DNA of 64,000 nt, from positions 372,001 to 436,000 of the forward strand of contig NZ_JAZDDH010000002.1 of assembly GCF_037081715.1 (NCBI RefSeq), written 5' to 3'. Positions within the stretch are counted from its first letter, which is position 1; each line of letters opens with the position of its first letter. The notes under the pieces are model-generated. The model saw only the letters and a program-made list of their open reading frames with translations, did not search any database and was not told the DNA's origin. Made by a program: the position numbers and the translations under genes. This document shows, piece by piece, positions 3,350 through 7,647 of the stretch. The DNA is from Halalkalicoccus sp. CG83. Its GTDB lineage: Archaea; Halobacteriota; Halobacteria; Halobacteriales; Halalkalicoccaceae.

Positions 3350-3465
3350 ACCGGATACTGCGATATCGAACGGGGCCGCGCGGCCATCGGTGGCCAAGCA
3401 CCGAACGGTCTTCGGGCCCGCATAAGAGATTTCAAACGCTCGGAACGTACGCGCGACGAGTAGCC

Positions 3466-4662
3466 GTGATCGATCCGCTGTTGGTCGGCGGGCTGGTCAT
3501 CGCGTGTTTCGTCGCGTACAACATCGGAGGAGCGACGACCGGACCGGCGTTCGGTCCGGCCGTCGGAGCGGGCGTGATCAGCAAGACCGTCGCCGGAGGG
3601 CTGATGTCGGTCTGTTTCTTCCTCGGCGCCTGGACGATCGGACGGCGGGTCGTCGACACCCTCGGCGAGGAACTCGTTCGGGATCCGGCGGTCTTCACGC
3701 TACCGGCCAGCATCGTCGTCCTCTTCTTCATCGGTGGCGCGTTGCTGATCGGCAACGTCTCGGGCGCCCCCGCGTCGACGTCGATGACCGCCGTCGGGGC
3801 GATCGCGGGGCTGGGTCTCGCGACCGGCGAGCTCGATTCGGCGGTGATCGGCGAGATCCTCGCCTGGTGGATCATCTCCCCTGTGATCGGATTCTGGATG
3901 GCGGTGGTGATCGGCCGATACGCCTACGGGACGATCGATCGGCTGATCGCGATCGAGCGAAGCGAGGGGCCGCTGGTGACCGTGGAGGGCTCCGGCCCCC
4001 TTCCGCGTCCGGCTCCCGGTCCGAACACGACGCGACGCGAGCTCATCGGCACCGTCGTCGTCGTGGGCATCGGCTGTCTGATGGCGTTCAGCTCGGGGGC
4101 GAGCAACGTCGCGAACGCGATCGCGCCGCTCGTCGGCAGCGGTGCGGTCGGAATGAACCCCGGGATTGTGATCGGCTCGGTCGCCGTCGCGGCGGGCGCG
4201 CTCACCATCGCTCGACGGACGATGGAGACGCTCGGCAACGACATCACCGACCTCCCGCTGACCGCGGCGATCGTCGTCGCCGTGTTGAGTTCGACGATCG
4301 TGATCGTGCTGTCGGCGATCGGCATCCCGGCGAGCTTCGTCATCATCGCGACCGTCTGTATCGTCGGTCTGGGATGGGGACGCTCGACCCGGCAGGTCCC
4401 GATCGCCGCCGCCGTCCACGGCAACGCCTCGCCACGGGTGTCGGTCGGCGCGCTCACGGCCGACGGCGCGCCGACCGTCGGAGAGCCGGAACCGGGAGAG
4501 TCGACCGATGACGTCGCCGCCGACGGCGACGGGGATCCGCCGCCGCGCTCCGAGCTCTTCGACCCGGCGACGACCGTTCGGGTGATCGTCATGCAGAACG
4601 TCGTCCCGATTCTCGCCACGATCGGCTCGTATCTCGCGTTCGTCCTGGTCGGGCCGGTATAG
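3466..4662 (+). CDS. PiT-family inorganic phosphate permease
   Basis: This 398-residue polytopic membrane protein has about ten hydrophobic segments in two related halves. The second half carries the family signature as SSGASNVANAIAPLVG (about 208-223). The first copy is diverged (NIGGATTGPAFGPAVGAG, about 19-36), lacking the usual Asn-Asp-x-Ala-Asn core. A hydrophilic Asp/Glu-rich loop of about 60 residues precedes the last helix. PiT proteins couple phosphate uptake to a cation gradient; the altered first repeat may mean a different substrate or coupling ion. The start is GTG at 3466, just before the first membrane segment, with no ATG closer. A small membrane protein follows 53 bases downstream on the same strand. 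Confidence 0.88.
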   Translation: MIDPLLVGGLVIACFVAYNIGGATTGPAFGPAVGAGVISKTVAGGLMSVCFFLGAWTIGRRVVDTLGEELVRDPAVFTLPASIVVLFFIGGALLIGNVSGAPASTSMTAVGAIAGLGLATGELDSAVIGEILAWWIISPVIGFWMAVVIGRYAYGTIDRLIAIERSEGPLVTVEGSGPLPRPAPGPNTTRRELIGTVVVVGIGCLMAFSSGASNVANAIAPLVGSGAVGMNPGIVIGSVAVAAGALTIARRTMETLGNDITDLPLTAAIVVAVLSSTIVIVLSAIGIPASFVIIATVCIVGLGWGRSTRQVPIAAAVHGNASPRVSVGALTADGAPTVGEPEPGESTDDVAADGDGDPPPRSELFDPATTVRVIVMQNVVPILATIGSYLAFVLVGPV

Positions 4663-4715
4663 CGACTTCGAGGAGTTGTGCCTTTGTACGATCGGTTCGA
4701 ATCCCCGGACGAACG

Positions 4716-5090
4716 ATGACGATTCGGCTCAGGGGTCGTCAGACGCAGTTCTACATCGATCTGGTCTACGGCGTCGCGTTCAGCGTCGGGTTCGGCTATC
4801 TCCTCTTCCTCGGCATGGACCCGCGCGTAGCCGCCTTCGAGGGAGGGCTCGTCCTCGGCTACTTCCTCCGTGTCTGGGAGAACATGAGCATCTACGAGCA
4901 GGTCCTCGAGGAGGAGGTGGCCGGAGAGGCCGAGGAAGCCGTCGCCGCTGAGGTCGAAGAACAGGTCCCCGCGGAGGCCGAACAGCAGGTCTCGACGGAG
5001 GTCGAGGACCGGATCGGTGACGTCGACGAGCGGATCGATCGAGAGATCGAAGCGCAGGTCTCCGATCGGGTGGAGGACCTCGAGGAGTGA
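4716..5090 (+). CDS. Small membrane protein with acidic coiled-coil tail
   Basis: I do not recognise a named family in this 124-residue protein. Residues 12-55 hold one or two hydrophobic segments (FYIDLVYGVAFSVGFGYLLF and a Gly-rich second one). From about 58 to the end it is a charged helix made almost wholly of Glu, Val, Ala and Asp in heptad-like spacing. That suggests a membrane-anchored cytoplasmic coiled coil. It lies just after the phosphate permease on the same strand and could be an accessory subunit of it, but only position supports this. Confidence 0.75.
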   Translation: MTIRLRGRQTQFYIDLVYGVAFSVGFGYLLFLGMDPRVAAFEGGLVLGYFLRVWENMSIYEQVLEEEVAGEAEEAVAAEVEEQVPAEAEQQVSTEVEDRIGDVDERIDREIEAQVSDRVEDLEE

Positions 5091-5331
5091 CCCCTCACGG
5101 ACCGCCCGACGGCCGTGATCGCGACTGCGACCGCGAGCGGGTCCCGGCACCGAACGGCCCGCGTTACACTGAAGACGGACCCGACACTCGCGGGTTCGAG
5201 TGACCTAAGCCGCTTCAACGGTCGATTTGGCGGGTTCGAGAGACGTGTCGGCGGCATCGAACGGGAGTGCCGGGATCCTCACCGGATCGAACGAGACACG
5301 TCCATGGACGACGCGATCTCGACGGCTTCGT

Positions 5332-5517
5332 TCACTCGGCTCTCTCGTTCTTTTCTATCTCCGTGATGATCACGTCCCAGTCCGGATGTTCGCCACCGTT
5401 CCGGCATTCCCATCCCCCTTCGACGTCGATACCGTTGTCATACGCCCGAAGAAGGAGCGATTTCAGTTCGTCGTTTAGTTCCGCCCGAGTCGTGGGCGAC
5501 GTCTCGGTGGTGGTCAT
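5332..5517 (-). CDS. Small haloarchaeal protein downstream of HalOD1
   Basis: This 61-residue acidic protein begins MTTTETSPTTRAELNDELKS and continues with GIDVEGGWECRNGGEHPDWDVIITEIEK. Its ATG overlaps the stop of the HalOD1 gene in an ATGA (5514-5517), so the two are translationally coupled. Similar short proteins accompany HalOD1 genes in other haloarchaea as far as I recall. It has one Cys, no membrane segment, and an unknown function. The GC content here is lower than in surrounding housekeeping genes. Confidence 0.75.
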   Translation of the reverse strand: MTTTETSPTTRAELNDELKSLLLRAYDNGIDVEGGWECRNGGEHPDWDVIITEIEKNERAE

Positions 5518-5870
5518 CGGAGAGGGACGCCCTCGTTGCGGTCGTGTTCCGACGGAGCGATCGTGACGAGACCGTAGCTGTAGACGATTATCTCGTACCC
5601 CTCTACGGTAAACGTGACCGATCGATCGCCGTTCGTCCTGCCCCGAACCTGTACGATCTCGTCGAGCGCGTCAGTGTCTACGGACGCACCGAGCGGGTCC
5701 AGTTCGATCGGGTCTATGCCCGTCACTTCCGACAACGACGCAACGACGGCCATGCTTGTGGAGGTCGAGTTCGGATCGTACTCGGCTCGATACGTCGCCG
5801 AGTCCCGATGGTACTCCAACGACTCTAACTCGGCACTGGCTAAGCTGGCTGTCATACTGTTCTGCATCAC
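5514..5870 (-). CDS. HalOD1 output-domain protein
   Basis: The 118-residue protein matches the haloarchaeal HalOD1 domain: an N-terminal segment YRAEYDPNSTSTSMAVVASL, then EVTGIDPIELDPLGASVDTDALDEIV, then a beta-rich end VTFTVEGYEIIVYSYGLVTIAP. HalOD1 is thought to be an output module of haloarchaeal signalling; its biochemical role is not established. The gene is first in a two-gene unit with the small protein at 5332-5517. The HTH_10 regulator gene lies on the same strand just upstream. A second HalOD1 next to an HTH_10 regulator occurs near 48.8-49.9 kb. Confidence 0.85.
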   Translation of the reverse strand: MMQNSMTASLASAELESLEYHRDSATYRAEYDPNSTSTSMAVVASLSEVTGIDPIELDPLGASVDTDALDEIVQVRGRTNGDRSVTFTVEGYEIIVYSYGLVTIAPSEHDRNEGVPLR

Positions 5871-5949
5871 TCTAGCGGCCTGAGTCGGTTTAACGGGAAC
5901 ACTGATTATACAGGAGGTATTAATAGGGAGCCGAGCGTGTCAGTCGAGC

Positions 5950-6591
5950 CTACTGGCTGATGAGCGTCGCAGCGATGAGTCGCCGATGACCGCGTCTGAG
6001 CCGAGACGAAAGCGACTGCTGGGTGATCCCGAGCTCCTCGGCGACGTCTTCGAGCGACGCCTCACGTGGCGAATCGAAGTACCCACGTTCGTAGGCCAAC
6101 ACCAGCGCTTCTCGCTGGGTGTCGGTCAACTCGTATCCCTCTCCCTGTACCGGGAGCAACGCGTGTACGGCGGTGATGTCGATGGAAATGTCGTGCTCCT
6201 GGCAGTAGGTTCGAAACTCGCCGATCTCCTCCCGAGTCTCGCTGCGCACCTCGAAGTGCCACCCGTCGTTCGTTCCGATCCCCGAGAGAACGGCGATGTG
6301 TGTCTCCTCGAGGGCGCTCAGGATGCCGACGTACTCCCGGTCCCACTTGGCACGCATGAGATACTCGTTCTCGACGCTGTCGATGAGTCGGATGTCCGTC
6401 ACGCCAGCATGGGCTTCGAAGGACGCTTCGATGTCCTCGGCCTCCGCACCACGGACCCAGAAGAACGGGATTATCAGGGTCTCGTGTGGGATGAGTCGCT
6501 CCAGTTCGACCGTCACTTCCGGCAGATTTTCGAAGACGCTCCCCAGCGGAAACTCGTCCGCCGGGCTCGTAAACTCCATCACGGTCGCCAT
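5950..6591 (-). CDS. HTH_10 (bacterio-opsin activator-like) transcriptional regulator
   Basis: This 213-residue protein has a variable N-terminal sensing region (about 1-150) and the C-terminal HTH_10 domain. The domain reads LTDTQREALVLAYERGYFDSP and continues through SLEDVAEELGITQQSLSSRLRRGHRRLI (about 157-207). Such proteins regulate transcription in haloarchaea, with Bat of the bacteriorhodopsin regulon as the prototype. The N-terminus has no recognisable PAS or GAF domain, so the signal is unknown. It is upstream of the HalOD1 gene on the same strand and back-to-back with a broken HTH_10 gene at 6629-7048. Confidence 0.88.
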   Translation of the reverse strand: MATVMEFTSPADEFPLGSVFENLPEVTVELERLIPHETLIIPFFWVRGAEAEDIEASFEAHAGVTDIRLIDSVENEYLMRAKWDREYVGILSALEETHIAVLSGIGTNDGWHFEVRSETREEIGEFRTYCQEHDISIDITAVHALLPVQGEGYELTDTQREALVLAYERGYFDSPREASLEDVAEELGITQQSLSSRLRRGHRRLIAATLISQ

Positions 6592-6628
6592 ACGAACGGT
6601 TCGTCACCGAGACCGATAACCCACGCGG

Positions 6629-7048
6629 GTGGTGTACCGGGCTCGATCACGACGCGTCCCACCGCAATGGGTGAGGGACGCGGGATGGTGGCTCGTCGTC
6701 CGATCCCAGCATACCTGGTGGACCAGGTTCACGGCACACTGTGAGGACGAGCAGGTCTCGTTGGAGGCGTATCGGGTGTCCAATCCGACGAAACCCGACG
6801 CCGGTCCGTGGTACGGCTTGACCGAGCCTCATCGAAGAGCGATTCGTCTCGCCGTACGGAAGGGGTACTACGACATCCCGAGAGGCTGTACGACCAAGGA
6901 GCTCGCGGACGAACTCGGAATCCCCGATTAGGCCGTAACGGAGCGACTCCGTCGTGCCATCGTGGCGCTCGTCACGCACACACTCGCCCCGTCCGAATCA
7001 GGGGCGTGGACCGCCGTCACCCTCGTGCACCATGGCGAATTCTCATAG
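6629..7048 (+). pseudogene. Broken HTH_10 regulator gene
   Basis: From about 6740 the frame reads CEDEQVSLEAYRVSNPTKPD, GPWYGLTEPHRRAIRLAVRKGYYDIP and RGCTTKELADELGIPD. It then hits TAG at 6929-6931, and the same frame continues AVTERLRRAIVALVTHTLAP to a second stop at 7046-7048. Intact relatives have Gln at the TAG (DQAVTERLRRAI), so one C-to-T change explains the stop. Just upstream, a family-like segment (YLVDQVHGTL) lies in another frame and ends at 6744, so a frameshift near 6735-6745 is also likely. The N-terminal sensing region is missing or unrecognisable. This is therefore a decayed copy rather than a short functional protein. Confidence 0.8.
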
Positions 7049-7117
7049 GGCTGCGAGACACTCGTTGAGTATGGTTCGTAAACCGAAAGTGGAACGATCG
7101 GCCTCCGGAGAGTTCGC

Positions 7118-7471
7118 GTGACGGCCAGTACCACTGAGAGCGGGAGATCGATCCCCCCCGACGTCGTTCTCTCGGCGGTCGCCGACGAACACCGGCGGGC
7201 CGTTCTTCGATCACTGAACCAGACCGACCAGAACGAGATGGATGTCGACGCGCTCGCGGATCTGGTCGCCGAACGCGTTCGAAACGGGGAGCCATCGGAC
7301 GACGACCATCGACGACGCATCCACATCGCACTCCACCACATCCATCTTCCTAAACTGGAGGCGTGTGGGATGATACTCTACGATACCGAAACGAACCAGG
7401 TCCGAAACGTCACCGGAGAGCTGAGCCAGAGACTACTGTCGGTGGTCGAGCCGTACGAAGCACGCGAGTGA
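7118..7471 (+). CDS. Haloarchaeal winged-helix (DUF7344-type) regulator
   Basis: This 117-residue protein begins at GTG 7118 and has a predicted winged helix: PPDVVLSAVADEHRRAVLRSL (about 14-34), a variable helix, then RIHIALHHIHLPKLEACGMILYDTETNQV (about 67-95), ending in a short acidic helix. This is the pattern of small haloarchaeal DUF7344-type transcription factors; the family number is from memory. It lies alone between the broken HTH_10 gene and uvrA, in a patch otherwise devoted to regulators. Its target is unknown. Confidence 0.78.
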   Translation: MTASTTESGRSIPPDVVLSAVADEHRRAVLRSLNQTDQNEMDVDALADLVAERVRNGEPSDDDHRRRIHIALHHIHLPKLEACGMILYDTETNQVRNVTGELSQRLLSVVEPYEARE

Positions 7472-7647
7472 CTTCGTCCGTTAGGCGTCCGCGGGTAGCG
7501 ACGTCCGTTCCGTCGTCTGCGATTCGATCCGTCGGACGTCATCACCGCGGGATCACCCCTCGGGAGCGCCCGCCCGTGTGATGCTTTCACACTCCTTGCC
7601 CTCGAAACCGATGGGTATTCACCCGTCGCGACCCTACCGAATTCCCA

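Follow-up and report, generated by a model that had tools for sequence, protein, structure and literature searches.

A recurrent HTH_10–HalOD1 gene pair and a mobile five-gene cassette in haloarchaea

Two HTH_10–HalOD1 units in a Halalkalicoccus genome

The window analysed here, a 64,000-nucleotide stretch of the genome of Halalkalicoccus sp. CG83, contains two places where a HalOD1 gene comes directly after the gene of an HTH_10 regulator on the same strand (Table 1). Both pairs lie where the original prediction had placed them, and profile matches bear out the domains. The HalOD1 matches cover profile positions 2-74 in unit 1 and 2-73 in unit 2 and assign both proteins to PF18545, with ATG alternatives possible besides the GTG start of the first; both regulators belong to PF04967. 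The BAT domain before HTH_10 scores 39-50 bits in orthologues from the cassette described below and 25.7 bits in the unit 2 regulator, just below the cut-off of 25.8 bits. A domain scan of the window and the cassette orthologues found no PAS, GAF or REC sensor domain in these HTH_10 proteins of 213-222 aa, and no scanned cassette protein matched a receiver domain or qualifies as a response regulator. The window HalOD1 proteins score 51.9 and 66.2 bits against the DdfA equivalog NF053557, below its cut-off of 70 bits.

A third small protein had been predicted to be coupled to unit 1, and the ATG of the 61-aa gene indeed overlaps the HalOD1 stop codon in the four nucleotides ATGA. The unit extends beyond position 6591 to a divergent HTH_10 remnant and an intact DUF7344 gene, which the original prediction had missed, and is the most elaborate HTH_10–HalOD1 form seen here. 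Unit 2 is a different, narrower conserved pair without the cassette, with an ordinary GC3 of 87-88%. Its best homologues with a checked neighbourhood, 44-45% identical and found in three sister-genus genomes, also precede HalOD1, and one in genome G017 (40% identity) likewise lies upstream of HalOD1.

Table 1. Features of the two units, in window coordinates. Pfam cut-offs are 26.3 bits for PF18545, 23.1 for PF04967, 25.8 for BAT and 27.8 for PF24035.
Feature	Position	Strand	Basis
61-aa 'WECRNG' gene, third of the HalOD1 arm	5332-5517	-	open reading frame
Unit 1 HalOD1 gene, 118 aa from GTG	5514-5870	-	PF18545, 74.2 bits
Conserved element CTGTATAATCAG in the HTH_10b-HalOD1 gap (5871-5949)	5902-5913	-	alignment of ~45 cassettes
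Unit 1 BAT and HTH_10 gene (HTH_10b), 213 aa	5950-6591	-	Pfam HTH_10, 67.4 bits; BAT, 42.6 bits
Operator-like site B, immediately 5' of the HTH_10b promoter	6630-6639		CGGT-N2-ACCA on the - strand; consensus TGGTACACCA
Operator-like palindrome, site A	6714-6727		CCTGGT-N2-ACCAGG in the window; consensus CATGGT-N2-ACCATG
Decayed HTH_10a	6728-7048	+	HTH_10, 60.6 bits, one TAG inside; aligns with intact HTH_10a
DUF7344 gene, fifth cassette gene, downstream of HTH_10a	7118-7471	+	PF24035, 67.9 bits; cassette profile, 134 bits
Unit 2 HalOD1 gene, 100 aa	48835-49137	-	PF18545, 71.7 bits
Unit 2 HTH_10 regulator gene, 222 aa	49194-49862	-	PF04967, 61.1 bits

HTH_10 genes lie upstream of HalOD1 far more often than by chance

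Profile searches of the source genome returned 15 HalOD1 and 40 HTH_10 matches, and four HalOD1 genes stand directly behind a same-strand HTH_10 gene where 0.04 would be expected (Poisson P ~1e-7). None of the 55 Usp genes taken as a control is so placed, and the one such case among 21 DUF7344 genes is that of the unit 1 cassette. The larger sample comprised 167 HalOD1 genes from the source genome and 20 relatives, picked by profile score and not by neighbour; their surroundings were scanned with profiles built from the same loci, and expectations follow the HTH_10 density of each genome. Counting adjacency against family abundance had been named beforehand as the test that could refute the association, and the association withstood it: an HTH_10 gene lies at most 500 bp upstream on the same strand for 33 of the 167, against 0.38 expected (within 1 kb, 37 against 0.75). 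The enrichment is ~88-fold, and the background is low elsewhere in the same neighbourhoods. None of the 167 has an HTH_10 gene downstream on the same strand within 500 bp, and five more have one tail-to-tail within that distance. Adjacency is far above chance and its order is fixed; chance is ruled out by the density, position and Usp controls. The repeated order had been taken to mark a functional module, and in this respect the association is real, but the two units are not copies of one module.

The genomes are related, and Poisson P values overstate independence; but the 42 pairs represent 24 HTH_10 clusters at 45% identity, and labels change 29 times on the HalOD1 tree (37 in shuffled examples), which shows that the association was not inherited from one event. 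A single origin of the pairing is not favoured by these 29 changes, counted on a tree of low resolution that was built from a domain of 66 residues. One HTH_10 cluster contains both a tandem (L116) and a convergent pair (L071), indicating that the pairing outlives rearrangement. Nearest neighbours agree between HTH_10 and HalOD1 in 19 of the 42 pairs, with one expected. The Mantel correlation is weak over all 42 (r 0.12, P 0.02) and loses significance in the non-redundant set left when near-orthologues were removed. Mirror-tree evidence for coevolution was rejected, as the two trees do not match in their deeper branches; they support recent co-inheritance at most. No HTH_10-HalOD1 fusion was seen.

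About three-quarters of the HalOD1 genes have no adjacent HTH_10. Upstream of unpaired copies we found DUF7344 (4 of 44), Lrp/AsnC-type (4) and TrmB (2) genes and many unrelated ones. At one locus of the source set (L011, G000:C1:1360931-1361547) a HalOD1 domain comes immediately after a DUF7344 domain on the same strand. Sister species have low-scoring HalOD1 genes whose frames are of similar length, which raises the possibility of DUF7344-HalOD1 as another type of pair. Elsewhere (L005, G000:C3:206415-211349), an HTH_10-HalOD1 pair is followed by a same-strand run of universal stress protein domains.

A mobile five-gene cassette with its own candidate control sites

Unit 1 belongs to a cassette with the layout DUF7344 ← HTH_10a | HTH_10b → HalOD1 → 61-aa 'WECRNG' protein. 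An alignment of the 61-aa protein, used as query, recovered 54 loci from GTDB species genomes and also had matches in seven plasmid records; the exact five-gene order is present in 37 of 59 loci, a set that includes a few duplicates (L236 and L263, for example, are the same plasmid). The cassette occurs in >20 haloarchaeal genera, on chromosomes and plasmids, in some loci with a second DUF7344 behind the 61-aa gene. HalOD1 and the 61-aa gene share the ATGA overlap in 39 of 47 cassettes. Across genera, HTH_10b orthologues are 72-83% identical to that of the window, and 61-aa orthologues in other genera reach 75%; HTH_10a proteins share 30-34% identity with HTH_10b of the window, both types being BAT-HTH_10 proteins. 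RefSeq labels the plasmid-borne genes 'helix-turn-helix', 'HalOD1 output domain-containing' and 'hypothetical', and in a Haladaptatus plasmid record the DUF7344 gene, detected by profile, is absent from the annotation. The PADLOC defence models gave no cassette match, the nearest being a CARF-like model to HTH_10b (E 0.017).

Intact HTH_10a proteins at other loci have 215-221 aa. The window copy is without promoter core, start and ~125 codons and carries an in-frame TAG at 6929-6931, and the four other cassette genes are intact despite the dead HTH_10a, including DUF7344, whose match at 7118-7468 places it in PF24035. Decay as in the window was observed in one Haloterrigena cassette (L223), with truncated HTH_10a, HTH_10b and DUF7344 frames; the same genome has two intact copies (L209, L224). 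Another locus (L015, G000:C3:101000-115000) has five HTH_10 domain matches in 6 kb, one in a frame with a stop, together with a 61-aa paralogue in divergent orientation; it looks like a hotspot where HTH_10 genes duplicate and decay.

The four intact cassette genes have a GC3 of 69-79%, and that of uvrA next to them is 92%. Relative to a sister species (G004), where rio1 and uvrA are adjacent, the window has an insertion of ~4.2 kb between the two (window ~3350-7570), consisting of an anion permease gene (3466-4662), a 124-aa gene (4716-5090) and the cassette. Families are intermixed on the HTH_10b tree, with 16 label changes among seven families and one group of 99% local support that contains three. 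Several copies are plasmid-borne, and the flanks are not conserved: besides the extra DUF7344 (16), the next flanking family appears in 8 of 59 loci. The cassette has been transferred between species as a unit, and HTH_10a was lost in the window copy. A Halomontanus plasmid (L261) and locus L232 likewise have an anion permease homologue close to the cassette, and L258 has one close to a 61-aa paralogue.

The divergent region between HTH_10a and HTH_10b, ~190 bp long, contains two operator-like palindromes. In most cassettes site A and the start of HTH_10a are 44-49 bp apart, and in the window both of its halves are altered symmetrically relative to the consensus; a few cassettes (L222, L235, L254, L255) have no strict palindrome. 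The exact consensus is present in four of nine genomes searched, every time at the cassette only, and its reversed control gave no match in the nine. Site B repeats the motif less exactly, ~40-50 bp from the start of HTH_10b. In the gap before HalOD1, CTGTATAATCAG lies between a conserved A+T-rich element on its upstream side and TTgAACCGAcTCAG on its downstream side. The CTGTATAATCAG element occurs in the source genome at the cassette only. Of nine genomes searched, seven have CTGTATWATCAG, from the same block, at the cassette; it has four further occurrences outside the cassette, about as many as its reversed control. Judged by its conservation, the block is a candidate promoter/operator of HalOD1 itself, and with such a promoter-like element HalOD1 need not be co-transcribed with HTH_10b. 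A wider regulon was considered and rejected, as neither conserved site recurs beyond chance in the genomes searched; these findings suggest local autoregulation. We infer that the HTH_10 proteins recognise the TGGT-N2-ACCA sites.

The 61-aa protein has no family in Pfam, NCBIfam, PHROG or PADLOC. An HTH_10 gene lies within 1.5 kb of 63 of the 68 copies examined, and this holds for 21 of the 25 copies without a neighbouring HalOD1, where it is often divergent. One open frame (L203:565-1230) carries the 61-aa domain behind a HalOD1 domain with no internal Met at the joint, a single case from a fragmentary assembly. Relatives of the 61-aa protein were absent from the viral contigs searched, as were those of the unit 1 HalOD1 from the phage records searched. 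Structure prediction of the 61-aa protein is confident for a helix alone. The AlphaFold2 model of HalOD1, of acceptable quality (pLDDT 75), has the order bb-aaa-bbb; its best VIA match is not a PAS domain (Z 4.0, rmsd 3.7, 74 aligned), PAS rows score Z 3-3.9, the best Foldseek match has E 0.68, and neither search gave a trustworthy fold or enzyme-fold match. In a sequence search of solved structures the regulator had no match, and HalOD1 and the 61-aa protein had weak, short matches, mostly to designed proteins.

A proposed regulator-partner system

Similar to Bat and Bat-like regulators (such as DmsR), the cassette HTH_10 proteins have a C-terminal HTH_10 preceded by BAT. They differ in having no REC, PAS or GAF and in forming two divergent paralogues with small partner genes, and the operator-like palindrome suggests a local circuit rather than the bop regulon. 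The window HalOD1 proteins resemble stand-alone HalOD1 proteins such as DdfA of Haloferax volcanii in being small, with a single HalOD1 domain and no other recognised domain; the available text on Hfx. volcanii places DdfA beside rdfA/sph3, whereas the unit 1 HalOD1 is in an HTH_10 cassette. Galperin et al. (2018, PMC5847659) describe REC-HalOD1 and REC-PAS-GAF-BAT-HTH_10 response regulators, in which the same output domains are fused to a receiver; the cassette, in contrast, has neither receiver nor kinase, and its domains are on separate neighbouring genes. An indirect link between the two families comes from Haloferax volcanii, in which mutants of DdfA and of HVO_1357 (a multidomain protein, REC...HTH_10) are both hypermotile (PMC10869688, PMC7824242), and DdfA is required for the density response (PMC12240190) and for cell-shape change. 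The component domains are known (PMC5847659), but the pairing had been proposed to be undescribed as a system, and the consulted literature on HalOD1, HTH_10, DdfA and DUF7344, with subscription papers mostly outside it, gave no description of pairing or cassette; the accessible HalOD1/DdfA texts do not mention adjacency to HTH_10.

The combined results suggest, with a probability of roughly 55%, that HTH_10 and HalOD1 form a recurrent regulator-partner pair of which unit 1 is a mobile, autoregulated cassette with small-protein modulators. HTH_10a and HTH_10b, transcribed divergently, would most likely control their own promoters through the palindromic TGGT-N2-ACCA sites just upstream of each core promoter and so form an autoregulated one-component switch. 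HalOD1 and the 61-aa protein may be small partners that tune HTH_10b in response to a signal, probably by contacting its BAT domain, and DUF7344 may have the matching role for HTH_10a. A function of HalOD1 as partner or modulator of the HTH_10 regulator, as originally proposed, is plausible; protein contact, direction of regulation and signal are what we infer from gene order and sequence.

The main rival to this reading, which we consider less likely, is that HalOD1, with or without the 61-aa protein, is the regulated output of HTH_10, for example a metal-dependent enzyme. An HTH_10 gene upstream and a promoter-like element before HalOD1 form a regulator-target layout, and from acidic motifs Galperin et al. 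(PMC5847659) predict that HalOD1 binds metal and may be enzymatically active. However, the tail-to-tail pairs and the linkage of the 61-aa gene to HTH_10 even without HalOD1 are less natural for a simple regulator and target, and the HalOD1 model yields no trustworthy enzyme fold. We regard as improbable a selfish, addiction-like element with toxin-antitoxin logic and no link to host physiology. As in toxin-antitoxin operons, the cassette has small overlapping genes, palindromes at its own promoters and mobility as a unit in variable contexts. Yet it matches no known defence or toxin family, its five mostly regulator-like genes, with several DNA-binding proteins in two divergent arms, are unusual for such a pair, and the decay of HTH_10a with the rest intact shows that there is no lethal dependence on HTH_10a. 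Very little credence is left for coincidence, in which two abundant families that share accessory regions become adjacent: both are numerous in the source genome, but the enrichment is limited to one position and strand, and Usp, with more copies than either, never follows HTH_10.

Within the regulator-partner reading, we tentatively consider a broader possibility, somewhat less than even in our estimation, in which stand-alone HalOD1 and the 61-aa family are exchangeable subunits of Bat-type HTH_10 regulators and constitute a haloarchaeal class of kinase-less signalling, in which domains that are fused in response regulators elsewhere would act as separate proteins encoded by neighbouring genes. 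One survey (Galperin et al. 2018, PMC5847659) counts >2,000 HalOD1 proteins and up to 49 stand-alone copies per genome. If true, exchangeable subunits would account for genomes with dozens of stand-alone HalOD1 genes and would suggest a role for DdfA in the density response. Through the genomic link every paired HalOD1 has a defined candidate partner for study, and the cassette offers a compact system with a predicted operator.
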